From positions 6,115,001 through 6,179,000 of the forward strand of contig NC_092680.1 of assembly GCF_964355755.1 (NCBI RefSeq): DNA of 64,000 bases. Direction: 5' to 3'. Position 1 is the stretch's first letter; each line of letters begins with the position of its first letter. Both the position numbers and the translations under genes were made by a program. Below are positions 4,375 to 33,356 of this stretch, piece after piece. Below the pieces are notes generated by a model. That model searched no databases. It was given only the letters and a program-made list of their open reading frames with translations, and had not been told where the DNA came from. This DNA is from Antedon mediterranea (taxonomy: Eukaryota; Echinodermata; Crinoidea; Comatulida; Antedonidae).

Positions 4375-5230
4375 TTAACTTCTTTTTCTTCCAAAAATTT
4401 CATAAAATGCGTTTCGGAAATTAGGTAAATTATACCAATATATTAGAGGATTCATCAAAAAATTGATAAAAACCAGACTTCCAAAAAAGAAATTCATATA
4501 TGTAAGTAATATACCAATGGAACATGTTATCATTGGTATAAAAACAAGACAACTTGTTACAAGATATGGCAACCAGAGAATACAATACAGGATTGTTATT
4601 GTTAAGCAGGTTTTTAGTAATTTTCTGGAATTCTTTGCGTTTGAAATATTCATTGAAGCGAGATAATGATTTGATTTGGAAATACTGTGATAAATTTTAA
4701 AATAAAGAAAAATAGTTATTAATAAAATTATAAGAAAAAACACTGCAATTATCACATTAAAATAAGGTTTATTAATGTAATATCAGGCAAGGTCCAACCC
4801 TAATCGTAGCACAGACTATCATCTGACGTTTAAATGTTACGATAACGGAGTAACGTAAAGGAGCGTATACTAACGCAATGTAACGATCTGCAGCAACGCA
4901 ATTTACGTTAAGCATTGACGTAAAAAGTATTGAGGCCATCATCAAGTTTGAAACAGCACTGTACTTTAAATTTAATACCACCGTGTTTATAAAATACATC
5001 AGTCCATTTGCACAATCTGCAAATGCCAAAGATACGATGAACACATTGTGTTTGTTTCGCAGATTCTTTGATCTGAGATTTACAAATATTGCAACACCAT
5101 TTAAAAGCACAACCAAAATACAAATGATTGAAACCACTGGTATGATAAATATTCTTGCGTTTTTATAAAACATTTCGTAATAATAATTCCTTAAATTGGA
5201 AATGCAAGATGAATTATTGGAGATATTCAT
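4375..5230 (-). pseudogene. GPCR pseudogene with one frameshift in TM4
   Basis: Two adjacent open frames (5230-4772, then 4755-4375) together cover a whole seven-helix receptor very similar to the intact gene at 6461-7345. The first half has MNISNNSSC, the TM1 motif LLNGVAIFV, the TM2 motif SLAFADCANGL and the TM3 motif DRYIALVYAPLRY. The second half has TM5, TM6 (LWLPY) and the TM7 motif NPLIYWYNLP, ending at GRKRS. Aligned to the paralogue, about 14 nucleotides are missing around TM4 (after ATIRVGP), which shifts the frame and stops translation within a few codons. Everything else stays open, so inactivation looks recent. A polymorphic allele or an assembly error remain possible. Confidence 0.85.
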
Positions 5231-5394
5231 TTTAAAAGTTTCACTTTTGACGTATTTGCGTTATTCCTTCGAATAGGCCTATCTGTTGAAAGTTTTAACT
5301 TGGCGTTCGTTTACCAGGTTTGACACGGGTAGTAAACAGCGCGTTACATACATTTTTTATTTTTCGGTACAGTTAAAGTGATGTCTGAGACACT

Positions 5395-5817
5395 CGTACG
5401 TTACGTTTGTGGTGACGATTACGGCGTAATGCAATGGAGCTAAGACTAACGCGATATAACGGTCCACCGCAACACCAGTTACGTTTAAAAGTGATATCAA
5501 GAGTATTGTTGGCGTTATCACATTTCCAGGAGCTCCTAATATAATTAATAATTAATCCATTTTACACAATCCGCAAACGCCAAACACACGATGAAATCAG
5601 TGCGTTACTTTCGGAGAACTTTTGTTCGTAGAATGACAAAGATAACAACACCGTTCAGACCTAAAATCAAAGTGCAAATTATTGAAACGATAATTACTGC
5701 AGTTTTAGCTCTTTTAAAAAATACGTTAAAATTGTCAGAAATAGAATTGCAAGGGATAGAAACATTCATTGACACCAGCAAAGACAAGGGGAACACCGTA
5801 CAATACCGGGTACTCAA
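5395..5817 (-). pseudogene. GPCR pseudogene, TM1-TM3 remnant
   Basis: A third broken copy reads leftward from about 5817. It encodes a TM1 region with IICTLILGLNGVVIFVILRT and LRK followed by a stop, then a TM2 remnant VCLAFADCV. After further stops and a frameshift it encodes SLLNVTGVAVDRYIALVLAP and LHYAVIV, the TM3 end and second intracellular loop of the family. TM4-TM7 are absent. Several independent lesions make this older than the copy at 4375-5230. Confidence 0.85.
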
Positions 5818-5848
5818 ATTGTGTTGAGAATTCGGTCGGTTTAATCAA

Positions 5849-6132
5849 AGTATTCTGTCCATCATTCCCTGTTGTCTTAATTGACCAATGTTTGTCACGT
5901 TTAATGAAACTCTTGACGATTGATATATTTCATTAAAATTAAACTAAACTCACTGTCATTGATTAAGAGTTTATTAACTCCAAGCCTTGTAAAAGTATTC
6001 TGTCCATCATTCCCTGTTGTCTTAATTGACCAATGTTTGTCACGTTTAATGAAACTCTTGGCGAATTGATATATTTCATTAAAATTAAACTAAACTCACT
6101 GTCATTGATGAAGAGTTTATTAACTCCGAGCC
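5849..6132. repeat. Tandem duplication of about 145 bp
   Basis: Two near-identical copies (about 5849-5991 and 5994-6132) both start AGTATTCTGTCCATCATTCC and run through TTTATTAACTCC and AGCCT. They differ at only a few positions, so this is a young direct duplication. It lies just downstream of the intact GPCR's stop codon and contains no ORF. Confidence 0.85.
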
Positions 6133-6460
6133 TCACAATCATCGATTGTTCTTGTGGTTTTATAATTACTCTAGGGCTCCTACAGTATTATTATTATTAT
6201 TATTATAAAACCACTTCAACTTTGTTGCAACACGTTTTCAAATTAAAACAAATATTATTGACTTTTGTTCAAATTATTATTGTCGTCTACAGCGGCTCTG
6301 GCTTTTGTGCGAGAAATTCCTGTGTGTAATTTAAAATCATCTGAAAACATGGCCACCATTGACATGTGTCAGTTGACTTCACTGCTAGTGTACTCGAGAT
6401 TTCTAAACGTCGTTTATACCATGCTATACACTTTATTTTACCTTTTGTCGTATATTGTAA
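6133..6460. other. 3' flank of the intact GPCR
   Basis: AT-rich sequence with a short (ATT)n run near 6187-6207. Plus-strand open frames here overlap the receptor's end and show no family signature. Confidence 0.4.
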
Positions 6461-7345
6461 TTAGTATTTCTTTTTCCTTCTCCAGATATCATAAAATGAG
6501 TTTCGGAAATCAGGTAAATTATACCAATATATTAGAGGATTAGTCAAAGAATTGATAAAAACCAGACTTCCAGAAAAGAAATTCATGTAAACAAGTAATA
6601 TACCGAGGTAACATGCTAACCCTGGTATAAAAACAAGACAACTTATTACAAGATATGGCAACCAGAGGACACAATACAGTATTGTTATTGTTAAGCAGGT
6701 TTTTAGTAATTTTCTAGATTTCTTTGCGTTTGAAATATTCATTGAAGTCAGATAATGATCTGGTTTGGAAATATTTTGATAAATTTTAAAATAAAGAAAA
6801 ATAGTTATTAATAAAACTATCAGAAAAAATACGGCTATTATTAACGGATTAAATTGAGTTGTATTAATGTAAAACAAAATACATATAATGCAATTTGGAC
6901 CAATCCAAATCGCAGCGCAAACGGTCAACTGACGTTTAAATGTTACGACAACAGCGTAACGTAAAGGAGCGTACACTAACGCAATATAACGATCTACAGC
7001 AACGCAATTTACGTTAAGCATTGACGTAAAAAGAATTGACGTTAATAACCAGTTTATAAGAATAATTATACCAAAGCTCGGACGATAAAAGCGTATAGCT
7101 ACATATGAATAATACCCAAGTCCGTTTGCACAATCTGCGAATGCCAAAGACACGATGAAAACATTGTGTTTCTTTCGCAGTTTCTTCGATCTAAGAATTA
7201 CAAATATTGCAACACCATTTAAAAGCACAATCAAAATACAAATTACTGAAACCACTGGTATGATAGCTGTAAGTGCGTACTCATAGAACATTTCAGTATA
7301 TTCAATAACGGATCTACAAGATGAATTATTGGTGGAGATATCCAT
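6461..7345 (-). CDS. Rhodopsin-class GPCR, intronless, MECA-like features
   Basis: A seven-helix receptor of 294 residues in one exon. The start is placed at the ATG at 7345, not the upstream in-frame ATG at 7459, because the paralogous copies begin at the same point (MNIS/MDIS with an N-glycosylation site). Class A landmarks are visible: N43 in TM1, D71 in TM2 (SLAFADC), DRYIAL at 118-123, W147 in TM4, LWLPY at 227-231 in TM6 and NPLIY at 269-273 in TM7. The C-tail is very short and basic. The usual TM3 cysteine is missing (isoleucine 94), and extracellular loop 2 is short with no obvious partner cysteine. That pattern is known from the melanocortin/lysophospholipid/cannabinoid group. The ligand is unknown. 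At least four broken copies surround it, so it belongs to a local tandem expansion. Confidence 0.85.
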   Translation of the reverse strand: MDISTNNSSCRSVIEYTEMFYEYALTAIIPVVSVICILIVLLNGVAIFVILRSKKLRKKHNVFIVSLAFADCANGLGYYSYVAIRFYRPSFGIIILINWLLTSILFTSMLNVNCVAVDRYIALVYAPLRYAVVVTFKRQLTVCAAIWIGPNCIICILFYINTTQFNPLIIAVFFLIVLLITIFLYFKIYQNISKPDHYLTSMNISNAKKSRKLLKTCLTITILYCVLWLPYLVISCLVFIPGLACYLGILLVYMNFFSGSLVFINSLTNPLIYWYNLPDFRNSFYDIWRRKKKY

Positions 7346-8214
7346 TGTATGACTTGCAGTGGTGAATAGCGACAATCGCTTGTAAAATGAAGATACGATT
7401 TGAGTGTTTCGTAGAACCTTTAAACAAGTAGAACGTGAGACAATTTTCCACCGAATCACGTTACAGCACAGAATGAAAGTTTATTATATATTATTCATTT
7501 ATGAACTTCGTTTAGCATCAAATGTACCAGGGAGTTGTAATAACAACTCCCTGAATGTACTATGTGTATGATTAGAATAGTCAAGTTTTAAAAACGTGTT
7601 TCGCAGCAAAAATGTGTGCTTCCATAACAATCTGATGTAGGCTTCTCTGGAAAAAGACTCACCAAACACTCACAATAATTTGTCAAGTTTTAATTTTTGT
7701 TAAATAGACAGAATGACCATCAATATGGAAACAATCAGATGTATAGTTTACGTATGTACTTTCATTACATTGCTCCAACGACGACAGATGAGTGGAAAGT
7801 ACAGTTTTATACTTCACAAACCTCTTTAATCATTTGATTAAATAAAAAAATTGGTATTTAACAGTGTACGATCGACTATTCATAAATGTTGTTTTATTAA
7901 AACATTGGTTGTCACACTTGATTGACGTTATCACCTTCGCTGTTAGTTATTAATGTTCTCTGACATTGATGTTATTTTTATTAACATGCTTGATTTGACG
8001 AAATGCTAATTTTTTGACGAGGTCTTAATGCCTAAATAATCAATTTTGCAGAAATCGGCCTTTAGAAAAAATACTTCTTCGTAGGTATTAGTTTCAAACC
8101 GCGTCTTTTTTTATCTTTAGTTATCAAAATTTAAAATGTTTCATAATAGTCATTAAACATATAATTAAGGATGTACTTACATTTTATATAAGCCTATTTG
8201 AAAATACAGAAACT
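7346..8214. other. 5' flank of the GPCR, one perfect hairpin
   Basis: No gene is seen. A perfect 11-bp inverted repeat with a four-base loop lies at about 7529-7554 (CAGGGAGTTGT, AATA, ACAACTCCCTG). The rest is unremarkable AT-rich DNA. Confidence 0.5.
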
Positions 8215-11542: not shown

Positions 11543-13456
11543 TTATGCGTTATCAATTAGCCTATCTTTTGGACAGTTAGGTGACAAAAGAGCTGTTTCA
11601 AGCTTGGCCCAGAACAATGCTTGTCTCTCTGGATGTTCTTCCCATTCGATATAAGTTGTAGTGGTCAATATCTTGTGTAACAGTATCGGCATGTCTTTGG
11701 GTGACACCTTCTCAATTAGCACCACAACCAAGATATCTTCATGGTTTAACGTACGCACGTGTGCCATCTCTAACTCGAAGTTGCACCACTCACTTTTGGC
11801 AAAATGTTTGGAGACAACTAACAAAACTTTGCTACTGAATTTAACAGCATTTGCAATGTTTGTAGCGATTGCTTCTCCTGGAAGAAAGTCTCGATAGTCG
11901 ACGCACAGTTTGAAATTCCGCTGCTCTTCCAACGATGGATGTAAAACATTAAGAACCCATTGTATGTCTTTGCTGTTGTAACAGACAAACACGTCATACA
12001 GAATGTTTTCTCCGTTGATAGTAGGTGGTCCTTGGTTGCAAATTCGCTGGTATTGTTTACGAAGGCGTCGTCGTTGGTTCCAATACCTAACATTGAAATA
12101 AATAATTGAAAAAAAAGTATTTATATAATATAATATATTTTATTAAACGTTAACATTGAAATGGACGACTAGATGCTTATTGTGTTAATGATATATTAAC
12201 ATTACGGATATGACCTTTTAAGGATCCTAATGGAAATAAGCTAACGCTTTTTGTGCTATCCTGGAAAATATTTTATAAACGTATATTTTTGTAATGTCAG
12301 TAATTATAATGATTTTCAAAAAATTAAAATCAAAACATTTTTAAATACATTAATTTTTTTTGGCATAAGCAATTATATATTTAAAATACTAATAATAATG
12401 ATCTTACCTTAAATGAAATCTGTAACGGTAAAGATTGACAACAATTATTACAACAATAAGCCCAGCTGAAGCACAAGGAATTGTAATTCTTAAGATTCTA
12501 TCCAACTTTCTACAGTGTAGTTTATCGGGATCGAAATTTAACATTGTCGTGTATTCTTTACTATCTATATATTGTCTACATTCTGTGTTGTTGATGTCTT
12601 CAATTGTAACATTCGTTGTCCCAATCCATTTTCTAAACCACATCAAATCACAGTTACACAGATATTTGTTGTACGCCACATCTATAAACTGTAATTGAAT
12701 CAGATTTTGAAGTCCAACGTCTTCTTTGATAGTTGTCAGAAAGTTGTTACGTAGAGTCAATCCTTGTAATCTCGATGAACCTTTAAATGCGTATAGTGGC
12801 ATACTAGTAATCTGATTTTTTTAAAGATATAAATATTTAAGATTTGGTAAATTCTGAAAAGTTTCTGAGTGAATATAATTTATATCGTTTCTTGCAAGAT
12901 CAATTGTTATTAGTCTTTTGCAATAAATAAATACTTTAGGATATATTGTGGTTAATCCACAATGTTCCAGATATACCTCTTCTAAAGATACAAGATCATC
13001 AAACCATGGTAGTAATTTATCCAAATCAGGGTTTTCATCCAAAGTTAATTTTCTCAGTTTTTGCAAACCATGAAATGCATTAATCTCAATTTTCTTATAA
13101 TTCAGTTTGTTACCATTAAATTGCAAATTCTTCAGGTTAGTTAAATTGTGGAAAGAGTAGTTCTTCAGAAACGAAATATTGTTGTCTTCCAGATGGTAAT
13201 ATTTAACATCAGTTGGCACCGTATCTTGCGATGAAATAGCCTTCAATCTTTTATTTGAACAAGACACATCATGACTGTAGTATAATTCCGTTTCTTCTTT
13301 ACAATATTTACAGTTACATTTCTTAGGACATCTGAAATCATCTAGCGGCTGAGTTCCATTTACCGACGGATTGTAATTGTAGCATGTTAATTTACCACTA
13401 ATATGACAGTAGAATGTTACGAAAAGAACGATAGTAACTTGAAGAAAAGTCCACAT
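11543..13456 (-). pseudogene. Toll-like receptor with one in-frame stop codon
   Basis: Two exons, 13456-12408 and 12086-11543, are joined by a 321-bp GT-AG intron. They encode about 530 codons. Visible in order are a signal peptide (FLQVTIVLFVTFYCHISG), an LRR N-cap with CPKKCNCKYC, about eight leucine-rich repeats, an LRR C-cap (CNCDLMWFRKW to LHC, about 264-315), a membrane helix (about 321-342) and a TIR domain from residue 380. TIR box 1 is YDVFVCYNSKD, box 2 is DYRDFLPGE, and a late FW forms box 3. One C-cap cluster makes it the single-cysteine-cluster (vertebrate-like) type, unusually short in LRRs. TAA at 12821-12823 falls inside LRR6 (LKYLYL, stop, KNQITSMPL). The frame is otherwise undisturbed, so this is a nonsense allele, a very recent pseudogene, or a sequencing error. 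If the stop is translated or absent in other haplotypes, the protein would be a membrane receptor for innate immune signalling. Confidence 0.85.
12245..12345. repeat. Dispersed repeat in the TLR intron
   Basis: The stretch TGCTATCCTGGAAAATATTT onward to the AT-rich end is repeated at 29698-29810 (GGCTATCCTGGAAAATCTTT, then ATAAA.GTAT, TTTGTAAT.TCAGTAATT, TGATTTTC and TTCAAATCAAA). This layout, ending in an A-rich run, resembles the 3' end of a retroposon, but the family is not identified. Confidence 0.5.
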
Positions 13457-14315
13457 AGTGGTAATGTAGACCTATATGACCCTTTTAAGTTAAGCACAAC
13501 GTAATAATGAAAACAATTGACTGAAATGTATTCGAATAAGGAAGTGATATTGAAATATCAAGTAATTGGATCAAATTAAAATAGTCATCACTTTTTTCGG
13601 ACGAAACAATATCATATGTTAATTTATCTCTAATATGACAACAGCAGACGGCACAAATAATGTCGCATCTCTAATATGAACGATCAAAGCTGAATCTTCC
13701 CATGAAGACCTTGCACTGTTGGCTGTCGTGGGTCCATGGAGGACCTAATCCGAATTTCCTCAGTTTCCAGTTAAGCATTGAGGACAAAATATAAATACCT
13801 TTACCTTTATAATATAGGACTTCGTATAGTCGGTAGTTTGTGAATTTTAAACCCACACCCTCACCTGCTTTAATTAGGCCTAGCCTACTCGTAGATAACT
13901 TTCACTTTTATTGTACAGTATCTATATCAGTTTTAACCAATCAGCGATTATTTCCAATCGCCGCCTTATATCCTGAATGCGCTCGCATGTTTTGGTTTCG
14001 TTATATAAGCGATCTCCGGTCCAAATAAAGTATTTTAAACAAGTTTAATACATTTAATAGTTTTGGTCCTTAATTTGTCTATATCAAACTAGTTGATCGT
14101 TGATACCAATACTACAGTTAGTACGAAGCAAGAAAATATGATCTACATTATGAGTGTGATATTGATTTATTGCTGACTTTCAAGAGAAAATATAAAGTTA
14201 GCTAAATATAGAGTTATCCAAACATGTTCTATATTGTCAAAATCACAAATGTATTTGAATCTTCTAAAATGTTCCTTTTACTGTATTTCATCAGTTTTGT
14301 ATATTTTCTTGTTGC
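13457..14315. other. Promoter side of the TLR gene and 3' flank of metaxin
   Basis: The first 100 bp (13457-13560) match the upstream flank of the TLR pseudogene at 2464-2560, so they are probably the conserved promoter/5' UTR of this receptor family. At 13845-13990 a third copy of the dispersed repeat seen at 9903-10092 is present. No gene was found. Confidence 0.5.
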
Positions 14316-17036: not shown

Positions 17037-20000
17037 ATGATTAGTAAATCGTTGTTTATCGGTTTAATATTGATAGCTTTAGCCTACTTTTATGATCGAC
17101 AGATATCTAATAGTAATACATCAACATATAGTACTACCTTCGAAGAAACTACCTTGAAAGCATGGGAGGACACGATAGTCAAGCCATCTCTGCAGATCAC
17201 CAAGGTTGCGATCGGGTCGGTAGCTAGGCTAGACTTACTTAGAACATAAAAGGCCTAGGCCTAGTCCTATAGGCCTAGGCTAGCAAAATACTACTACAAA
17301 ATATATCAAACTTATGATTATATGAATGATAAGTGATATGCACTAGGATCTTTATAAATAAACCCTGTTAACTGTTAGCTGTTATGTTTAGTGTTATAAT
17401 TAATATGTATGGTGTCTAATCATTTCGGCCGCCAGTCATTCCGGCCGCCAGAATCGTCAATATTGTTAATAACGTATGGCACGCCTTAATTGTCAAAAAG
17501 AGTGTATACATGTGCCTATCGCCTGAATAGACGTGTGTAAAATCACACAGCCAATTTATGACTTATGGAGGGATTAGTTTAGTAGTTTTAACTAAAGTAT
17601 TTCGGATTCCAGTATTTCTACACGACTTACTTTATTTCATAGTGGTTTTTTTTGGGGGGGGGGGGGGGGGGAGGGTTGTAGGGCCCAGGAAGAAGCCGGC
17701 GAATGATAGTAAAATAAAATATTGATAGCGCATCTCCATGTAAATCAAAATGTGTGAACTATGATCGTTTTTGTTGATTGCTTGCTGTTTGAATACGCAC
17801 GTCTATTCAGGCAATAGGCACATGTATACGTACACCCTTTTTGACAATTAAGGTGTTCCATACATTAACAATTGACGATTTTGGCGGCCGAAATAAACAA
17901 TACATATTTTGTCCTTTTTGGCGTTTCATGATTTTGGGCGTTCCATAACCGGCGGCCGAAATGACTGGCGGCCGATATGCACTGTGACCATTAATATACA
18001 GATTCATGAGGATACAACAGACAGGAGGGGTATGTGACTGTGATGGGTTGTGTATTTTTTTTTTGGGAGGAGGGGTGTTATTATGTTATGCAAACATTTG
18101 GCAATGCCTAGGACCAAAACCACCATGCATGTAATATTATTTGTTGGGTAATAAACACTGGGAAATTACACTTACAATTATTACTTATATGTAGTAGTAC
18201 ATTATTGGGTAGAAAGTACTTATTTGTTGGGTGACAACTGGTAATGAGTTTTTCCTAAAATTTCTTTTTGTAGACTTAATGTAAATGCAGATTTGATTGT
18301 TTCTGGTACAGCACTACTCATAGCACTGGGTATTGAACCTAAAGAGAAACAAGACCACGCTACTCTACACTCCTTAAATCACTTAGGAGAGACATTTGGA
18401 TTCTTCTTTCGCCAAGGGTCTGGTGGAGAGAGATACTTTAGCAATGGAGAAGTTTATCAACAGATAATAGATGTTGCAAACAAACTACCAAAAAAACAGG
18501 TTGGTTGAAATTATATTTTAGACTTAAACCCTTGTACCAGTTCTATTTGGCGTTGGCACCTAGAGTACTATCTGAAATAGAAGAAGAAGAGAAAGAAAGC
18601 TGGATTGAGATGGGAATAATGGACAATACTGAAAGATAGAGGAACTTATAAATACCATACTATTATTATTATTATTTATCCAGTGCGAAATGGTGTTTTA
18701 AAGTGTTGCTATCTTATTGTTAATTGGTTACTTGGTGTTAGGGATTGGTGATTTTATTTCTTGAATATAAATGCATGATGCATTAGCCTTTCTCATTTTT
18801 TATAACTAGTCAGCGAATATATCTAACATTATGAAATGATTATGTTATGTTTATTTGATGCAGTATTCTCTTGGTGGAAATGCTGGTCTTATGGCTCAGA
18901 AGATAGCAAACACAATGCCAGATGTCCAGGTATGTCTTTTGTATTACTATAGTCACTTTAAGTTCTGTCTACACTATCAAACTGGTTTGACAAAAAAGTG
19001 TGCCCATTATATGGACATGATGATGTCATATCACTACCATATTTGGGCATATCACACTTTTTTTTGTTAGTTTGATGGTGTAGACAGAGCTTTAGACATT
19101 ACATATTAAACATGGCACAGTTATGTAAAACAGCAATATTTATGTGTTGGGTTGATACCAAACATAACCGAAATATAATTTTTTTTTAGATTCAGTTTGT
19201 GGGACCTGTCGGACCAATTGCAGAGAAAATGTTTGCTGACAGTATACAAGTTCCAAATGGGGTCAAGGTTCAAAATGATGAGGTTCACCTAATTATGGAA
19301 TATGCAAGAGGCGAGAAATGGGGCGAGGATGTTGCACCTCTTGCTACCCGCTTTATCACTTCAAATGATATTGCTAATGCGAATCTTATTGGAATTAATA
19401 TGTTTGTGAAAAGTGTTACAGGTAAAAAGATGATCTCAGTTAAAAATTAGTTCTATTTTATATCTTTTTTCTATCTTTATAATTCATTGCTTGCTATATA
19501 ATTTAGCAAGTGTGAATCCTAGATCTTTCAAATCGTGCGTAGCCGCGTGAAAACGAAACATTGACGTTCGATTTTATTTACTGGAGCTGTTGTGAAAGAT
19601 GCTTTAAGCTTGAAACCCTAAATATATGCCGCATATAATATAAATAACATTTGTGAATATTTTGCTTTTCATATTTTTATTTTCAGAGTTTCAACCACAG
19701 TTGATTGTATTGTCTGGACTGCATCTTCTTGATGGTCATTCACAGAAAAAAAGAGTAAAACTGTTAACCAGCATGAGAAATGAAATAACAAAGATGCCAA
19801 AAGACATTCCTATCCATTTAGAACTCGCAAGCATGGCAAACGCAGACTGTTTAGCAGAGATTGTGAAACAGGTGAATAAATACAGAATTGTATATGATAC
19901 AATTTCACAATTATAGTTACAGTACAGTATTTCAATGCAGGAAACTGCATCACTTGTTAAGTAAAGCTCTGTCTACACTAACAAACTTTGCGACAAAAAA

Positions 20001-21389
20001 TGTGACGTGCCCATATATGGACATGATGATGTCATATCACTACCATATTTGAGCATATCACCACCAAATTTGGGCACATTTTGTTAGTAAAATAGTTTGA
20101 TAGTGCAGACGGAGTCTTACTAAAATTACAACCTTATACTTCAAGGTTTTTGTCGCAAATCACAATATATACTACTGTATATAAAACATATCCACTGTCC
20201 CTGTTCAAGGAAATGTACACAATGTATGCAATGCTGTAACCAATTGATTGACTCAAAATTGGACATCTATAATACAGGAAATAATAACATAATGAACATA
20301 TGCAAAAGTATAATTGCAACATTTATTACATATAATGATGATATTGATATGATATCTACATAATGAGCAGAAAATTCCAGGTTTCAATATCGAAGGGGAC
20401 AACCTTTTTTAATTATCACAGATTTCCTCATCAGAACTGTTTCTAAATTGTATATACAGCAGCAGTACTGAATAACCCAGTTTTTTAGTTTCTTTATGCC
20501 TACACATCTATATGCTGTGTTAGGCTCTGTCTACACTATCAAATTAGTTTGACAAAAAAATGCCCAAATATGGTAGTGATATGTCCATCATCATGTCCAT
20601 ATATAGGCACATCACATTTTTTTGTCGCATAAAGTTTGATAGTGTAGACAGAGCTTTAGTTTATTATTGTACAGATAAAAACGTTAAATAATAAGTTTCA
20701 TTATTTAGTGATGAAAACTATAAAATAAAAGGGAGACATTTGTTTTTGACCAAATACTAATACATAGCTTTATTCTGCAAAGGATCATGTCACCAAGTAC
20801 TGTACCAAGATAACAATTTTTCTTTTTTTCTATTTGATAGATTTTTCCAGTAATACACTCTATTGGCTTGAATGAGCAAGAGCTTGTCTTCTTCTCTAAT
20901 GCAAATGGTGGACCACATCAAGATCTGCAACCAGTAAAAGGCTACCCAGAGATTGCAGCGGTCTCTGACATCATCAGCTGGCTTTTCAACAAGTATGCTA
21001 CAGGATCTAGTACTCTGTCTCGTGTTCACTTTCATAGCCTAACGTATCACTTAATAGCAACAAAAAAGAGTGCATGGGAGAACAGCCAATCAGCTGTAGC
21101 TGCAGGAGCACGCGTTGCCGGGGAACAGGCTTGCATGAAAAAACCAATAGACCCATCTCAAGTGGATTTACATATACCTAAAGCATTTAGTCTTTCAGTA
21201 GATAACATTCCATTAAGAAAAACTATAGTTATATATGACCCTGCTAAGCCAGTATCTATATGGGATAGGGATGGGGTAGATTTTGCTTTTAGCCCAGTAC
21301 TTGTATGTAGAAAACCAGGGAATACTGTGGGCCTAGGCGATGCAATATCAGCAACTGGATTGCTTTATTCAATGTATAAGAAAGAATAG
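17037..21389 (+). CDS. ADPGK: ADP-dependent glucokinase
   Basis: Six exons, 17037-17215, 18274-18499, 18864-18929, 19190-19421, 19687-19871 and 20841-21389, give 478 residues with every frame closing. Animal ADPGK phosphorylates glucose using ADP instead of ATP. It is an ER-associated ribokinase-fold enzyme of about 490 residues. An N-terminal hydrophobic anchor is visible (LFIGLILIALAYFYD). Then come KVAIGLNVNADLIVSGTALL, YSLGGNAGLMAQKIA, FVGPVGPIAEK, LIVLSGLHLLDGHS, IHLELASMAN, GLNEQELVFFSNANGG and ARVAGEQAC. The GxGD catalytic motif VGLGDAIS has its aspartate at about residue 463. The first donor, GTCGGT after ATCGG, is weak, but it is the only one that keeps the frame. Introns carry one foldback element and three family-2 MITEs. 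Confidence 0.95.
17411..17983. mobile_element. Foldback element with CGGCCGCC repeats, ADPGK intron 1
   Basis: Left arm 17411-17535 and right arm about 17790-17983 are inverted copies. Both carry GGCCGCCAGTCATT, AATCGTCAAT, TTAATTGTCAAAAAG, TACATGTGCCTAT and GCCTGAATAGACGTG. The right arm has about 60 extra bases. CGGCCGCC or its complement occurs repeatedly near the ends. The centre holds a G homopolymer at 17646-17671. No ORF is evident, so it is a non-autonomous element. Confidence 0.7.
18958..19094. mobile_element. Palindromic MITE family 2, ADPGK intron 3
   Basis: A near-perfect palindrome (18961-19091) starts AGTTCTGTCTACACTATC and ends with the complement GTGTAGACAGAGCT. TTA flanks both sides. 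The core reads ATATCACTACCATATTTGGG. The TTA target duplication suggests a Harbinger-type source. Six relatives lie at 19965, 20523, 27394, 31064, 31337 and 33357. Confidence 0.8.
19965..20117. mobile_element. Palindromic MITE family 2, ADPGK intron 5
   Basis: Starts AGCTCTGTCTACACTAACAA and ends GATAGTGCAGACGGAGTCT. The core carries ACATGATGATGTCATATCAC and a duplicated TATTTGGGCA-type segment. It is slightly more diverged than the copy at 18961. Confidence 0.75.
20523..20655. mobile_element. Palindromic MITE family 2, ADPGK intron 5
   Basis: Begins GGCTCTGTCTACACTATC, ends GTGTAGACAGAGCT, with TTA on both sides (20520-20522 and 20656-20658). Two copies of the family therefore share this one intron. 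Confidence 0.8.
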
Positions 21390-23498: not shown

Positions 23499-24584
23499 TT
23501 AGGTGTCGTCGACAGGTTCGGCAGAACGATAGCACGTAGGACGGATAACGGTTGCATGTATGAACAATAGCCCACATATAGTTGCATAACCAAGTATGAT
23601 AAATAAAACCTTTAAAACACGGTCTACTGGTTTCGTTATATCCTGGAATTCGTGAGGTAGAACTTCGATAAATGTAATGTACAAGAATGTGCCAGTTGCT
23701 ATACCCTGTAGGATTCCATTTATCAAGCTGTGAATAAAATCGTTTACATCATCAACAGCAATTCCGATCGCAATTCCAATAGGGGCCATGATCGCAAAAC
23801 AAAGACATGATCGAAAGATCGCAGAACGAGATAGATTGCTTTGTACAAGATTTAACCCCAGACTAAAAGCCAACACATTTTTATGGATGATGAGAGCGAT
23901 GAAAATTTGTGTGATCAATGCAGTCGAGTTTTGCAATCCAAGAGCCAAGCCTTCAAAGAGTGAATGTAGGGATAATGCAAAGAGTAACATTAAAGAGTGA
24001 AAGCCTGAACCATCGCCATCTTCATGTCCGTGAGAATGACCATGTGAATGACCATGTGACGAGGCAACCTGCACGCCATTCATGCTCGTCAAAGTGTCTC
24101 TATAAACATGCTCATCATTCGGATGATAGTTATTTGATGCGTACAGACTTCGCTGGTACGCTTCGGTGTCCGCAATTAATGGTGCATTAACGCTTTCAGG
24201 CATAGTACTCTCAGACCGTGTTCGAAGTTCATTTGGCGAAGTTTCTTTTACCATCACAGCAGTTTGTTCAATAATTAAAACAAGAAAAAATCCCATAACC
24301 ATAACAAATTCTGCAAAAGGAAATGCAGTATATTCCTCAAGTTGATCAAACACTAAACTCAGTCTATCTCGTACAGTTGGTAACAAATCTAACAGGCAAG
24401 TTGCGAGAAATACACCACCTCCATAACAACTTAGAAAACTGACAATCCGCAGAGTCTTTTTTCGCTGTTCTTCGTTTTGGTCTTTGCCTAATCTCTTTCT
24501 CAAAGTTATTGGAAGTAATGCAAAAAACAAGCACAAGAAGAAAAGAAGAACTAATATCATAATTTTAAAACCCAGCACATCCAT
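23499..24584 (-). CDS. SLC39A1: ZIP-family zinc transporter (SLC39A1/2/3 type)
   Basis: A 361-residue protein in a single uninterrupted exon, which is shorter in gene structure than vertebrate SLC39A1. Eight membrane helices can be drawn. The cytoplasmic loop after the third is histidine-rich (HGHSHGHSHGHEDGDG, about 178-193). Helix 4 has the family signature HSLFEGLALGLQ, helix 5 has HKNVLAFSLGLNLVQS, and helix 7 has the conserved YITFIEVLPHE. These residues line the metal path in ZIP proteins, which bring Zn2+ (or similar ions) into the cytosol. The match is best to ZIP1-3 (subfamily II). Which of the three cannot be decided here. The start is the first ATG of the frame, just before helix 1. 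Confidence 0.9.
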   Translation of the reverse strand: MDVLGFKIMILVLLFFLCLFFALLPITLRKRLGKDQNEEQRKKTLRIVSFLSCYGGGVFLATCLLDLLPTVRDRLSLVFDQLEEYTAFPFAEFVMVMGFFLVLIIEQTAVMVKETSPNELRTRSESTMPESVNAPLIADTEAYQRSLYASNNYHPNDEHVYRDTLTSMNGVQVASSHGHSHGHSHGHEDGDGSGFHSLMLLFALSLHSLFEGLALGLQNSTALITQIFIALIIHKNVLAFSLGLNLVQSNLSRSAIFRSCLCFAIMAPIGIAIGIAVDDVNDFIHSLINGILQGIATGTFLYITFIEVLPHEFQDITKPVDRVLKVLFIILGYATICGLLFIHATVIRPTCYRSAEPVDDT

Positions 24585-26565
24585 TTTACTTTTTGGTATA
24601 AGTATTCAAGCTAAAAGAATGATAATAGTAGGCAACAGATCAGGTAGGTAGCCTGGTTCCATAAAGTTTTCTCTAGATCAGACTCCTTACTCCTTCACAC
24701 ACAACAAACATAGGAGATGACCATGTCTCTGTTCTGATGACAGCAGCTGCTGGTGGGATCCTACCAATGTTGTCAGTTGGTGAAACTTCAGTTAATTATT
24801 TGCTAAAACCTCACAATCATCCACTAAAACAATCATCCAAACAGAATTCCGTTCTTCTCCATTTGGTTTAGGTAAAACTAATGTGATAATAAACAATAAA
24901 AAGGTATCTGCTTGTCCTTTTGTGTGTAAATCTCTGATTACTAAGCGATCTTGTGACTTCTTCAATTCCTTGTACTTTAAATAACCTTTGACCTCAGTGT
25001 ATATAATAGAACTCTCCATTAACATTATAGGTGTGCAATATGATAAATCTTATAGATAGAGCATAAACAAATTTACGATTTTGCTAATATATAATGAAAT
25101 ATATAAATAAAATGAAATAAAATTGGATTTCACCTATTCTATAATGATTATTAGCTGTTCCACAAACTAAACTAGGCCTAGGCTAGTAACAGTTATCCCC
25201 CTACTAGATCAAATGATGTTGACCTTACCAAATTGTATAAAATCATATCATGATGGCTTCCCCCGTTTTTGTGTTGTAAATAAATAATATGAGAAATTGC
25301 CTTTTGTGGTTTCGATTATTTTTTACATCGGAAAGAAGACGAACATTATTGGTATCATTTTTTAAAATTTATTTGTTTATATTTCTTTTATACTAGGCTT
25401 ATATAAGATCATAAAATAAACCTAGCTAGCGAGCTAGCTAGGTAGGCCTGGCTGGCCCTGGGCCTAGCCTAGGGTAGTGTAGGCCTACTAGGCCTAGCCT
25501 AGCTAGGCCTAGTAGGCTAGCTAGGCCGCCGTAGGCCTAGCCTAGGCTAGGCCTAGTGAAGCAACTAACTTTACTCTACTGACTGAGCGAAACCGACTTA
25601 GGCCTAGCTATAGTACAGTATTTAGGCCTAGCTAGCCTAGCTAGAGTTAGGGTAGTATAAGCCGGCCCTAGCTAGTAGGCTAGTAGGCCCAGTCAGTACG
25701 TCTTATTATTGACAAGTTTACTGAAAGCTTAACTAAAATCTTAGATTTTACATTTTTACATTTAAACACATCCATATGAAGTAGACCTTGACTAGACTGT
25801 ACATGAAAAAAAAAATTATTTCATAAGGGCAAGATTTGTTTTTATTTGATTAAATATAATATAAATGTGATGGTGCATGACCTTATGTGACTACAATCTT
25901 CCTGCTCATGTCTTTGTTCATAATAAAGTAGTGGTTACCTTCATTCCTTTCTAAATAACTCATATCCTGTCCTAATGTTTCCTATCATTCTATTTCCTTT
26001 ATGTCATTGTGGAAAGCTCCACCATGATTGTTAACGTTAATGTTATGTATATGTGTGTGGTTACAATGGAGGAGATAATATCAGTTTAAGGGGAGGTAGA
26101 GATGTGTCGTGCTAATCAATTCACTATTATTATTATATATACTACTACTATACTATAATGATTTTTTTAATGTTGTTGAATTTGCCATTTTATGATATAG
26201 TTCAACTAAAGTTGAAAGAAAAAAAATGTAAACTTTGCTCAATATTTATACACATTCCAGGTCAAACGAAATTGCTACTGCATGATTGATTGTGCAGTGC
26301 GATCATTAGCATATTCTTCATATGAGTTGTTGATTTAATGAAATAACTATTTTTTTCCGTTTTCTTTCATCAAAAACTTGATTAATGGTACAAAATTGCC
26401 TGTTCAAATTTAAATTTTATTTACAATTTTTCTTGTTTTTACAGACAATATTTAATAATTTCAATAATTATGCAAATTTTACACACCAGGTGTTACAATT
26501 TACCCACAATACATGTTTTAAATATGTTTTTTATTCCTTTTTGTAGTCTGATAAAGAGGAGGGAA
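24585..26565. other. Intergenic between ZIP and THEM4-like gene
   Basis: No gene can be supported. Minus-strand open stretches at 24792-25025 and 24660-24785 read plausibly for short distances, but they are in different frames and match nothing I recognise. They may be 5' UTR exons of ZIP or an old coding remnant. An AGGCCTAG-rich block follows at 25425-25700. The 5' end of the THEM4-like gene starts near 26540. Confidence 0.45.
25425..25700. repeat. AGGCCTAG/CTAGCTAG palindrome cluster
   Basis: The block is built almost entirely from overlapping AGGCCTAG, CCTAGGCT, CTAGCTAG and GCTAGC words, most of them self-complementary. Single copies of the word AGGCCTA occur all over the window (8269, 9806, 13877, 14756, 15096, 16462, 16550, 17251, 25171), so this cluster is a local concentration of a widespread motif. 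Confidence 0.8.
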
Positions 26566-29500
26566 ATGTTTCACCTTTGCAAAAGGCTACCTCAACTAAA
26601 CTACTTCCAAGGTTTCAGCTGTGTACAATTGGATAGATCTCTTGTAAGTATAATTATTTGCCCTGATCTTTCTTTAGTGAGAGAGTGGCTAAGAGATTAA
26701 GTCAATGGAACCGTAATTACGTAGCCATAACATCGCAAACGTATGAGGCTCACTCACTCCATGGTTCTGATGGTAGAACGAGTCTTCTCGGGTAAGGACT
26801 ATAAACCATAGGTCCAGTGTACACATCTAGCTCATGTGCACTTTAAAGAACCTAGTACATCTTTCGAGACGAGTAGGGGGTTACCCCAGTGTATTAGTAC
26901 ATCACAGCCACTGATCATACCTTTGCCCTCTGGGAGACCAATGTTTGACTGAAAAGGTTGCACATTATAAATGAAATAAAAAAAAAAAATAATAATGCAA
27001 CTCTTAAATTATACTAAATAATTATAAATAACATTATTCTGGTATTTTTATTTATTTCAGATAGTCTCAACTTCCATTTTATTTAGATATTCATCAGACA
27101 TGACATCAGAGAGACCAGGATGGAGCAAACCATCTCAGCAGTTGTATAATAAGTTGTTAGAGGATACAAAACATGGCAAATGGGTAGAAGTGTTGTCCAC
27201 TAAAAGTCCGCCACCAACACAGCCTGACTTTGCTCGTTTGACAATGTTTGACCCTGCTGTGTACGAGTATGGTATTTTCATAAATAAAGAAGAACAATGC
27301 TTACATGGAGTTTGTGAATTTGGGCCCTATGCACAAGGAGCCGAAGGGTACGATGTTAGGACTTTTATTTTTTATAATAATTCAAAATTTATGGGACAAC
27401 AAAATGTGATGTGCCCATTATATGGACATACCACTACCGTATTTGGGTATATATCACTACCATATTTGGGCACATCACACTTTTTTTTGTCAAACAAGTT
27501 TAATAGTGTAGACAGAGCTTTAGAGTCAATAAACCAGCCACATGTATACAATTTAAGTGGAATCCCTCCTTAGGGACACCTCTACTAAGTAGACACTTTC
27601 CTGTAAAATGAAAGAAGAAAATACATGTTTCAATACTATGACCAACCTCTAAATATAAATGGGGGAATAACCTGCGACTTGCATCCTACTGGGCTGAATT
27701 GCACACAGGTGTGAACGACACATGCCACAATTTTCTACTTACCTAAGGGTCCCTTTGTGTCAAGTGCTGCCACAAAAATGTGCCATTTGTCTGTCAACAA
27801 TGACAGGTGCTGAACGACCAAGTACACCGGGTAACCCCCTAAATATCTATGGAGGAGAAGGTACATACATAACTATTACTACCTTTTTCTATAGGCATGT
27901 TCATGGTGGTGCCATAGCAACCATAATTGATGGTGCGACGCAAGTATTGAAGTCCAACTTATTTCCAGAAATTTTGGCTGTAACTGGTAATTTAAAAGTT
28001 AACTATAAAAAGTAAGTCAATTATTTATGTAAAGAATTCACATTACTTTAAATAATGAGTGCGATGAGCAGATAGACTCCAACATTGATAAAATTGTACC
28101 AAATATATTATTTACTAATATGCCTCCCCTATCAGGTGCTCATTTGCATCACATTTAAAGAACATTATATTAGACCATAGCAATTCGGTTCAAAAGCATG
28201 CACACACACACATGTATTTCTGCCATTTGATTTCTTGATGTATCACATGTCATGCCTTATTTGGATCCATCCTCACAATTGGGGGTACAGTAAATACATT
28301 TTTTGAATAGCCTGATCAACTACCAACCTGTACTGTAGAGTGTGTTGTGTACCACAGCTCTACTCGGCGGCGAAAATCTGAACGCCTTATTTTAAATGGG
28401 ACTAGTCTTCGACATTCAATTAAGGATGAAAGCAGCGAATTTTCAATACAATTTTACTTTTACTGTAAATGTTTTATATTCCTGGAATGGGGGAATATGT
28501 TAGTAAGTATGTGCTTATTTGAGGAGACAAATATTGACTCCATTCATAAACACTCATTATTTCAGTTGTATAATAATGATAATAATATATATATATTTAT
28601 TGACAGACCACTGACAATAGGAACTACAGTCTTCGTTGAAAGCCACTTGGAGAAGAGAGACGGCAAGAAGTTCTTCCTCTCATGTTGTTTAAAAAGTGCC
28701 GATAATTCAATTTTGTATGACACTGGTACCGCATTATTCTTTGACGTGAACGACCGCACAGATGACCTACCTGAAAGGTCGTGTGAAGTCGATGGACTCA
28801 AAGTTGATCCAGTAACCGGTTGGAGTGAAGATTCAGAAGCAGTTCTCAAGGAGATTCAGGATGAACTGGATGCTGAGTCTTGGAAAATGTCAAAGACGAC
28901 AAAAGTGCCACTTTCAAGAAAAATATTTACACGTTTGCCTATAGGTCCAGGGGCAGTATTTGAATATGCTTGGCTATATAATAAAGATTCAATTGCAATG
29001 AAAGGGATTTGCCAGTTTGGACCATATACTCAGGGACCAGATGGGTAACAATGAACATTTTTAATAATTATTTTATTTTTATGAAGAAATTTGTATTGGC
29101 CTACGTGGGAAAATCGTTTGTTGACAAACTCAAAATATTATATACAGCAGACAACAATAACACACATATAAATAGCTAAAAAATCATATAAATAGAAATT
29201 ATATTGTTTTGATTTAGCTTTTCGCTTTTTTTTGTATCTCCATTGAGATCCAGCCACTGATATTCACAGCATTGTCATTTCTTCAATAATTTGCCTTTGA
29301 ATCAATTGAAATATATATATATAAACTAATTATTAATCTTTATATGTTTATAAAATTAATTTAATTATATTTATCATGAACTTATGGAAGTTCACAAACA
29401 ATCCAATGATTATTGTGTTAAGATATTATGGCTGATTTTGTTCCAAGTTGTAAGTTGACAAATTGTTTCTTTTCTAGACTTGTTCATGGAGGAGCTACTG

Positions 29501-30348
29501 CCACAATGATAGACTCAATTCTTGGTTGCATGGTAAATGAAGACCCTCAAATTAAGGCTGTCACAGCAAATCTAGACATCAAGTATAAATTGTAAGTTCA
29601 AATGAGGTCCAATAGCTACTACAGTATAACTTCTTTTTGGGACTCGATTCAGGGGTCATCCCTAGGGGAATCTTTCCTGTGAAATAAATGAACAGATGTT
29701 TTGGGCTATCCTGGAAAATCTTTTATAAATGTATTATTTGTAATTTCAGTAATTTATGTATGTATTTGTTGTGATGATTTTCCAAATAAATTCAAATCAA
29801 ATCATGTTTTACTCTACACTCAACCTATATTATAATAGTTAAGGAGTTGGGTCAATCTTTGCACATTTTTTAAAGATGTATTGTCCCCTAAAAACATAAA
29901 AAATGAAGATTAATAAAATCAGACTTTGAATAGGCCATTTTGCAGTTTTAATCAAGTTATTCAACAAAAATAAGAAACAAAAAAAACATTGTCTGAGTAT
30001 TGTATTTTTTTGCTTTAAATTATTTTTTTTTTTAGGTAAATATTTTTTTCGATCCAGTTTTGGTTAAAGTGAATAAGTAGTATGTGACATTAAAATAGCA
30101 TATTTGAAAACAAGTTTTTTTAGGGGAACAATATATCTTTGCGGTAAAATATGTTTAAATAAATCTGCTCTTTTGTTTTTCATAGGCCAGTTCCTATAGG
30201 CTCAACATTACGTGTTGACGCCAGTCTAGAGAAGAGAGATGGATGTAAGTATTTTTTACAATGCAAACTATCGACGGCAGATAACTCTAAGATTCTGGTA
30301 TCTGGAACAGCTCTCTTTGTTGATCTTGTTCAATTATACAATTTATAG
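26566..30348 (+). CDS. Double-hotdog THEM4-like acyl-CoA thioesterase
   Basis: Six exons, 26566-26643, 27061-27347, 27895-28011, 28607-29044, 29478-29591 and 30186-30348, make 398 residues, with all frames closing. The N-terminus is rich in R/K/S/L without acids (MFHLCKRLPQLNYF onward), like a mitochondrial targeting peptide. THEM4-type hotdog domains follow twice. Unit 1 has EYGIFINKEEQCLHGVCEFG, HVHGGAIATIID (123-134) and NLKVNYKKPLTIGTT. Unit 2 has EYAWLYNKDSIAMKGICQFG, LVHGGATATMID (308-319) and NLDIKYKLPVPIGST. Each ends in GTALFFDV or GTALFVDL. Human THEM4 has one such unit in about 240 residues. Introns interrupt both units at the same two places, both in phase 2, and one continuous exon (28607-29044) encodes the end of unit 1, the linker and the start of unit 2. 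Both units keep the HGGA motif and the catalytic aspartate. Confidence 0.9.
26682..26990 (+). mobile_element. SINE with Deu-like core, THEM4-like intron 1
   Basis: A possible tRNA-like head (AGTGGCTAAGAGATTAAG) is followed by a body with CACTTTAAAGAACC, CGAGACGAGTAGGGGGTTAC and CCCAGTGT. This resembles, from memory, the conserved core of DeuSINEs known from sea urchin, amphioxus and vertebrates. An A-rich tail (AAATAAAAAAAAAAAATAAT) closes it. The same region contains GGTTCTGATGGTAGAAC as a possible box B. Confidence 0.55.
27394..27519. mobile_element. Palindromic MITE family 2, THEM4-like intron 2
   Basis: It carries the family core (ATGTGATGTGCCCATTATAT, ATATCACTACCATATTTGGG) and the right end ATAGTGTAGACAGAGCT plus TTA. 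The left terminal repeat is truncated. It starts only 46 bp after the exon 2 donor, and part of it falls in a chance ORF extending exon 2. Confidence 0.75.
29698..29810. repeat. Dispersed repeat, second copy
   Basis: Matches 12245-12345 over about 100 bp (see that entry). It lies in the last intron of the THEM4-like gene. Confidence 0.5.
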
Positions 30349-31063: not shown

Positions 31064-31202
31064 AGCTTTGTCTATGCTATCAAACTTGATTTGAAAAAAA
31101 AAATGTGATGTGCCTATATATGGAAACGATGATGTCATATCACTATCATATTTGGGCACATCGCACTTTTCTAGTTTGATTATTGATAGTGTAGACAGAG
31201 CT
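31064..31202. mobile_element. Palindromic MITE family 2
   Basis: Starts AGCTTTGTCTATGCTATC after TTA (31061-31063) and ends GTGTAGACAGAGCT. The core has GATGATGTCATATCACTATC. A second, truncated copy follows 135 bp later. Confidence 0.75.
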
Positions 31203-31336
31203 TAGGATTTGTGAATTGGGTGTTACTGGTATTGTAGGCTGGGTCCTAAATATTGGTTAAGAATTTTCTTGCTGATGTAATAATTCAAAGTCTTCAGTTA
31301 TAATTAAGTTGTGTTTCAGTATCTCAGGTATCGGCA

Positions 31337-31432
31337 CTAAAAGTGTGATGTGCCCAAATATGGTAGTGGTATGCCCAAATATGGGCACATCACATTTTGT
31401 TGTCACATAAAGTTTGATAGTGTAGACAGAGC
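31337..31432. mobile_element. Palindromic MITE family 2, left end missing
   Basis: Core GTGTGATGTGCCCAAATATG and right end GATAGTGTAGACAGAGCT are present. The left terminal repeat is lost. A TAA follows the right end. Confidence 0.7.
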
Positions 31433-33356
31433 TTAACACTTCACATTTTCTGACAGTGCAGGCAAAAAAAAAAAACTGTGGATAAATGTTGTGGCAATTT
31501 TACTGCATTCAAGAACAGAAGTATTTTCAGGGGAGAGTATAATTTCACTCTTCCCTAGTATTTTGGAATCTATATATAAAAAAACATAAAAAGAGCATTA
31601 ATAAGTTTTGTTAATTTTACAAATTTTTGAAATTACACATTCATTCATTCACATTTATTTAGTCATCGTTTACATATCCAATCACACAGGATATCAATGA
31701 TGATCAGAATTGTACTGGGAAAATTTTAAACTACATTTAAAAATTACTGCTCAGATGCTGTAATCTTTTCTAGTGAGGCATAAAGGCAAAACATGCTCTT
31801 CCGTGATAAATTGTTTCAATGTCGGGAAAGTGTTAAACCATAGTAATCAAATAGTATAATATAAATTAAGCCTTTAAAAAATGGAAGGATGATATTGATT
31901 TTTATTGCCAGAGTATTGGACCAAAGTAAAAAATAAAAAATTTAGAGGCCAAAGTTCAAATAAAAAATATTGTGGCAAAATATGTGATTACATTTGCTGA
32001 AACTGAAGGATAAATGAGAAATGTTAATGAGTATTTATTTATTGTGTAAGTAAATAAAATAATGTCTATTTATAGAATTTTACATATTATCTTTGTAATA
32101 TATGTATGTGCTATTTTAATATCAATATATATCAATAATGTTATCATCTTGAATAGGTTTGTTGGATATTATAAATATTCATAATAATAATAATATAATA
32201 TTTTGTATTACTAATTTGCTGTAATAAATATACAGTACAATAATCATTTACTTAGATAAACTTTCAAAACATTTTTAAAATTCATATTTCGAATTTCATT
32301 GGTTCAGAAATGAAATTAAACCTTGCTATCAAAATCCCACCAGATATTTATGATTGTAAAATAATTCTATCTGTATATGTTTATTTCGTTTTTATTAATT
32401 TTGAAGTTATGTTGATACATTTAATTTATTGCAAAGTCATAAATGTTTTTTTTTTATGGAGGAACATTTCTACACAACTCTGACACAGGGGTAATAGGGA
32501 TGTATCCTGATTAGGGACTGGCCTTCCTTTATATTTATAATACCTATCAAAGTGTTCTACTTAACGATGGTGCTTAAAATAATCGTATGCAATTGCCATT
32601 TTTATTCATCCAGGTGCTGTTTTATTATTATGTCCAACCAACACGGTTCATATTAATTTAGTTTTTCTGTCGTTTGTAGAACCCCTATTAAGGGGACACA
32701 TCCAGGGCATCATAGGTAATAGGAGGGCATCGCTTAGTAGGGATGGCATCTTGAATAGGGGTTGGTAGTCTAGAGACTCTAGGTTTTAGACAGTATTTCG
32801 AATTATTATTAGCAAAAAGATAAATATTTTGGCACATATGGCGATTCATACATATAATACTTTTACTTAAAATATTTTCCAGACAAAAATCGAAATGTCG
32901 ACGGGTGGACTAACATTAACAATTATTACAGACTTGGGGCAAGTATATGGGTTGGCTGTAGTGTTGAAGATATATTTCCCCTCGTGTATTTCATGGGAAA
33001 CTTCCCTCTTCAATTAATAATTGTTTTAATACATTATTAAATTATTCCCGATTTTAATAATTTTTAGTATTCTGTTAAATGGTCACAAATTGATGCGTCA
33101 TATAATTATTACGATTTTAATTTTGTACTTTTACACAATGGAACACTATTGTACATTATGTGTTTTGTACCGCTATGGTTATTCATGTACGCTTATACAT
33201 AATAAATATATAAACATTATTTTATCCATCTATTTTTTATATTATTCACGTATTCTCTACTGATAATTGTTTTATTTTATTTTTTTATAAATTGCATTGT
33301 ATAATCTTTAGTTTGTGATTATTCATTATAAAGTCCAATCCGAACACTGGCTACAA

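Follow-up and report, generated by a model that had tools for sequence, protein, structure and literature searches.

A THEM4-related gene with two hotdog units in tandem in the crinoid Antedon mediterranea

The window analysed here is a stretch of 64,000 nucleotides of the Antedon mediterranea genome (contig NC_092680.1, positions 6,115,001 to 6,179,000). At 26566-30348 of the window we rebuilt a single gene on the plus strand, composed of six exons and five introns and spanning 398 codons, which encodes two THEM4-type units one after the other. All five introns have GT-AG borders; intron 1 is in phase 0, and introns 2 to 5 are in phase 2. The first in-frame stop of the six-exon gene is the TAG at 30346-30348, and a search for assembly gaps (N) in the region of the gene returned none. 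The gene is laid out as follows:

26566..26643, plus strand: exon 1, start Met and N-terminal leader (MFHLCKRLPQLNYFQGFSCVQLDRSL), ending at a GTAAGT donor
27061..27347, plus strand: exon 2, remaining leader, helical lead-in of unit 1 and opening strands of hotdog 1
27348..27894, plus strand: intron 2, phase 2, at the position homologous to that of intron 4
27895..28011, plus strand: exon 3, HGGA loop of unit 1 and central helix with Asp134, then Thr152
28012..28606, plus strand: intron 3, phase 2, at the position homologous to that of intron 5
28607..29044, plus strand: exon 4, end strands of hotdog 1, linker, lead-in of unit 2 (from 28818) and opening strands of hotdog 2
28749..28817, plus strand: linker NDRTDDLPERSCEVDGLKVDPVT, 23 amino acids between units 1 and 2, open and in frame
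29045..29477, plus strand: intron 4, phase 2
29478..29591, plus strand: exon 5, HGGA loop of unit 2, Asp319 and Thr336
29592..30185, plus strand: intron 5, phase 2
30186..30348, plus strand: exon 6, end strands of hotdog 2, then the TAG stop codon
30386..30391, plus strand: AATAAA polyadenylation-type hexamer, starting 38 bases past the stop codon

Exon 1 is the weakest exon, as it was placed from signals alone, without the backing of a homologue. An alternative start, Met40, lies at 27100 in exon 2, the exon in which the helical lead-in of unit 1 (GWSKPSQQLYNKLLEDTKHGKW) begins at 27118. In the signal-based model, residues 1 to 40 include four basic and two acidic residues (net charge +2) and have a modest helical moment of 0.36. 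It is possible that the leader encoded by exon 1 is part of a mitochondrial targeting region, and the tandem enzyme is perhaps located in mitochondria.

The remainder of the window holds the following neighbours and repeated elements:

about 15-16 kb, minus strand: metaxin/Tom37 gene
about 18.2-21.4 kb, plus strand: ADP-dependent glucokinase gene
23502-24605, minus strand: ZIP zinc transporter gene
18960-19092, 19964-20061, 20522-20656, 27395-27520, 31095-31203 and 31320-31434: copies of a MITE-like element

The MITE-like element measures about 125-145 bp and is bounded by the terminal inverted repeats AAGCTCTGTCTACACT...AGTGTAGACAGAGCTT. Intron 2 of the tandem gene contains one copy, and two lie just downstream of the gene. 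Genome-wide, exact 16-base ends at the matching spacing were counted 607 times, compared to 0 for a reversed-pattern control. The segment at 25380-25700, upstream of the tandem gene, is rich in short repeats of the CTAGGCCTAG type (taggcctagc, ctagctaggc). Pieces of Toll-like receptors, in which LRR repeats and a TIR domain occupy adjacent frames, occur on the minus strand at 1954-2352 and 11546-13471, and the frames at 12.8-13.5 kb and 1.9-2.4 kb have the N-terminal sequence DDFRCPK.C.CKYCK..TELYYSH in common; these pieces possibly form a tandem family. Two or more adjacent genes, or gene fragments, for rhodopsin-type receptors, alike at their N-termini, were also observed at 4378-7480 on the minus strand. 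The neighbouring genes agree with an animal, plausibly a deuterostome, as the source.

Each unit of the tandem protein consists of a THEM4-type helical lead-in followed by a 4HBT hotdog domain. The Pfam 4HBT model matched the whole protein with an E-value of 2.6e-19 and the two halves with E-values of 1.3e-9 and 4.5e-8, such that both halves singly pass the Pfam cut-off. Aligned to each other, the units share 44% identity over 163 residues (E 2e-45), or 42% across 174 aligned residues when the full repeat is counted and 51% in the hotdog core. The repeat exceeds the hotdog domain, as PGWSKPSQQLYNKLLEDTKHGKW and TGWSEDSEAVLKEIQDELDAESW align with the N-terminal helical segment of human THEM4, and the lead-in with its conserved W that precedes unit 1 is found again before unit 2.

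The HGGA loop, a catalytic-type Asp and a Thr are present in both units, at H125 (27902-27904), D134 (27929-27931) and T152 (27983-27985) in unit 1 and at H310 (29485-29487), D319 (29512-29514) and T336 (29563-29565) in unit 2. No variation is seen among units 1 and 2, THEM4, THEM5, 2ov9 and 3nwz in the HGG, the helix Asp or the Thr. In human THEM4 numbering, we take these residues to be His152-Gly154, Asp161 and Thr177, the latter two presumably having a role in catalysis.

Searched alone against the PDB, each half found THEM4 as its best match (4ae8 and 4gah, E 5e-23), well ahead of THEM5 (5e-8 and 3e-9), two bacterial PaaI-like proteins and THEM2 (1e-2 and 6e-5). In the hotdog core, the units are 37-39% identical to human THEM4. 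The vertebrate proteins THEM4 (CTMP) and THEM5 (ACOT15) have the same lead-in W and the same EY...GPY..GP.G..HGG...D...T pattern as the tandem units. However, their PDB chains of 209-220 residues carry one unit each, whereas the tandem protein carries two in one chain. The tandem gene is therefore a variant related to the THEM4/THEM5 family and not an ordinary member of it. These results bear out what a first-pass annotation had read from the letters of this DNA, namely a THEM4-like gene with two tandem hotdog domains in one open frame, an HGGA motif and catalytic Asp retained in both, and a departure from the single hotdog domain of THEM4 and THEM5. In vertebrates, THEM4 and THEM5 are linked with Akt signalling and with the remodelling of cardiolipin.

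Either half alone amounts to a complete THEM4 unit, and a second start at Met255 in exon 4 is conceivable, so that the model might have falsely merged two adjacent single-unit THEM4 genes. Exon 4 speaks strongly against such a merger. Its 438 bases form one uninterrupted frame running from unit 1 into unit 2 through the in-frame linker, as the first-pass annotation had also noted, and the earliest in-frame stop is at 30346. From V208 in the last strand of hotdog 1 to G232 in the GW lead-in of unit 2, the spacing is 23 codons in the middle of the exon. These 69 bases, in frame, open and coding-like, are too short to accommodate the 3' end of one gene together with the promoter and 5' untranslated region of the next. 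Furthermore, Met255 comes after the conserved lead-in helix of unit 2. The chance of 23 codons running without a stop is about 16%, hence openness alone is weak evidence. The codon usage of the linker outscored all 1235 stop-free frames of equal length in introns and flanks, frames that overlap and are not independent. Folded alone, exon 4 yielded strands, lead-in helix and strands in the expected order, at a confidence too low for a usable model (mean pLDDT 46). We consider a reading as two separate genes highly improbable.

The two units are also split by introns in the same manner. Introns 2 and 4 cut the same aligned column (GPYAQGAE/G/HVHGGA and GPYTQGPD/G/LVHGGA), as do introns 3 and 5 (NYK/K/PLTIG and KYK/L/PVPIG). 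If independent, two such coincidences would have a rough chance of 7e-6. The identical codons and the common phase 2 of both pairs indicate that a multi-exon genomic segment was duplicated, and the copying of both introns along with it points to a segment of three exons or more. Duplication of an intron-bearing genomic segment is thus the simplest cause of the tandem units. The internal duplication put forward in the first-pass annotation, together with the homologous phase 2 introns on which it drew, agrees with the 42% identity and the shared intron positions. Its description as an exon-level event holds insofar as several exons were copied, and a genomic segment of at least three exons with its introns is the better fit.

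No sequence likeness above chance was found between the paired introns, indicating that the duplication is not recent. Between the units, synonymous change has reached saturation (pS 0.82) and dN is 0.62; judged from these alignments, the units are under strong amino-acid constraint. Relative-rate counts against human THEM4 gave 12 and 13 sites changed in one unit only, and these even counts argue that neither unit is decaying faster. Tree and AU tests used 117 columns from six sequences. The AU test did not separate a sister relationship of units 1 and 2 (p 0.50) from a placement of unit 2 below unit 1 plus THEM4/THEM5 (p 0.56). An arrangement with one unit as the THEM4 orthologue and the other as the THEM5 orthologue was rejected (AU p about 3e-6).

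A search of the genome (354 Mb in 18 contigs) with the whole tandem protein and human THEM4 as queries found no second THEM4-type locus, though a divergent copy could escape such a search. The tandem enzyme probably replaces the single-unit THEM4 in A. mediterranea. THEM2 is present on contig C11 at 2.82 Mb, and an ordinary ACOT7 is encoded on contig C3 at 26.21 Mb (26213798-26219615), its domain 1 reading GNVHGG...E and its domain 2 GYATGG...D. The second HGG loop of this ACOT7 is altered, as its second hotdog domain reads GYATGG compared to GFVHGG in the PDB ACOT7 chain 6vfy. Among viral contigs and bacterial and archaeal genomes, collections that contain no animal genomes, no relative of the tandem protein was found. 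Our literature search on tandem THEM4, echinoderm THEM4 and double hotdogs, which left out most subscription papers, found no description of such a gene, and the protein may already be in public databases under a name such as THEM4-like. Seen in a single genome, the two-unit chain is a well-supported new architecture among THEM4-type proteins.

We consider it likely that the gene encodes an acyl-CoA thioesterase with a double hotdog in a single chain, in effect a THEM4 dimer fused into one, that arose from the duplicated genomic segment. The segment would have comprised the THEM4 catalytic unit, i.e. the helical lead-in and the hotdog with its two introns, and its duplication would have produced one gene for a 398-residue protein in which two THEM4 units follow each other. 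A survey of structures reported that the hotdog domain is never found singly and occurs as dimers or as double hotdogs (PMC2698920), which makes a single-chain pseudodimer a reasonable reading of the tandem protein. In hotdog dimers, a continuous antiparallel sheet is formed and both subunits contribute residues to the sites (PMC2698920). Hotdogs 1 and 2 would accordingly pair within one chain as separate chains do in a THEM4 dimer, with composite sites that bring together the HGG loop of one unit and the Asp and Thr of the other. Each chain would then have two competent acyl-CoA thioesterase sites. As both units carry the full residue set, we favour an intrachain pair with two composite sites. 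The substrate hydrolysed is probably a medium- or long-chain acyl-CoA.

The units could instead pair between chains, 1 with 1 and 2 with 2, like beads on a string and without forming a pseudodimer. Every tested active-site residue is kept in both units, as homodimer interfaces require, and the connection of about 60 residues with the lead-in helix may permit either arrangement. However, in the double hotdogs described so far one chain reproduces the structure of the dimer (PMC2698920), and local concentration favours intrachain pairing. We regard pairing between chains as unlikely. Similarly small is the probability we give to a pseudodimer in which only one of the two composite sites turns over, the other being non-catalytic and regulatory as in ACOT7. 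This reading draws on the trend of double hotdogs, whose domains share about 10% identity, toward one active site (PMC2698920), and on ACOT7 itself, in which one domain is inactive and half-of-sites behaviour is seen (PMC4356623). It is at odds with the HGG, Asp and Thr found in both units and with their even rates. As for the dependence of one domain on the other, the domains of a double-hotdog thioesterase were inactive when expressed apart and regained activity on combining, according to the account of Forwood et al. 2007 cited in PMC4388271.

The favoured single-chain pseudodimer can be extended to a double hotdog of near symmetry in which both sites are fully competent and which the lineage has fixed as its sole THEM4-type enzyme. 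In its boldest version, with which the tree is compatible, the tandem form predates the split from vertebrates, in which case the single-unit THEM4 and THEM5 of vertebrates would result from a later reduction. We hold this extension to be doubtful, somewhat more so than either alternative above.

Double-hotdog enzymes are thought to derive from fused dimers, one site being lost later, and those described are too diverged for the early steps of fusion to be seen. The tandem THEM4 gene looks like an earlier, symmetric stage of dimer fusion, given its similar units, shared introns and intact residue sets. It would provide a testable natural case of the transition from dimer to single chain in the THEM4/THEM5 enzyme family.

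A fused hotdog dimer is of a kind known from other thioesterases. ACOT7, as well as ACOT11 and ACOT12, resembles the tandem protein in having two 4HBT domains per chain and an expected pseudodimer. However, ACOT7 belongs to another branch of the hotdog superfamily and matches the tandem protein at chance level (E 0.74). Furthermore, ACOT7 has a degenerate site, whereas both residue sets of the tandem protein are intact by sequence. TesB and the eukaryotic MaoC-type hydratase 2 likewise replace a dimer with a double hotdog in one chain. In these proteins identity between the domains is about 10% and there is generally one site (PMC2698920), in contrast with the 42-51% identity and two intact residue sets of the tandem protein.
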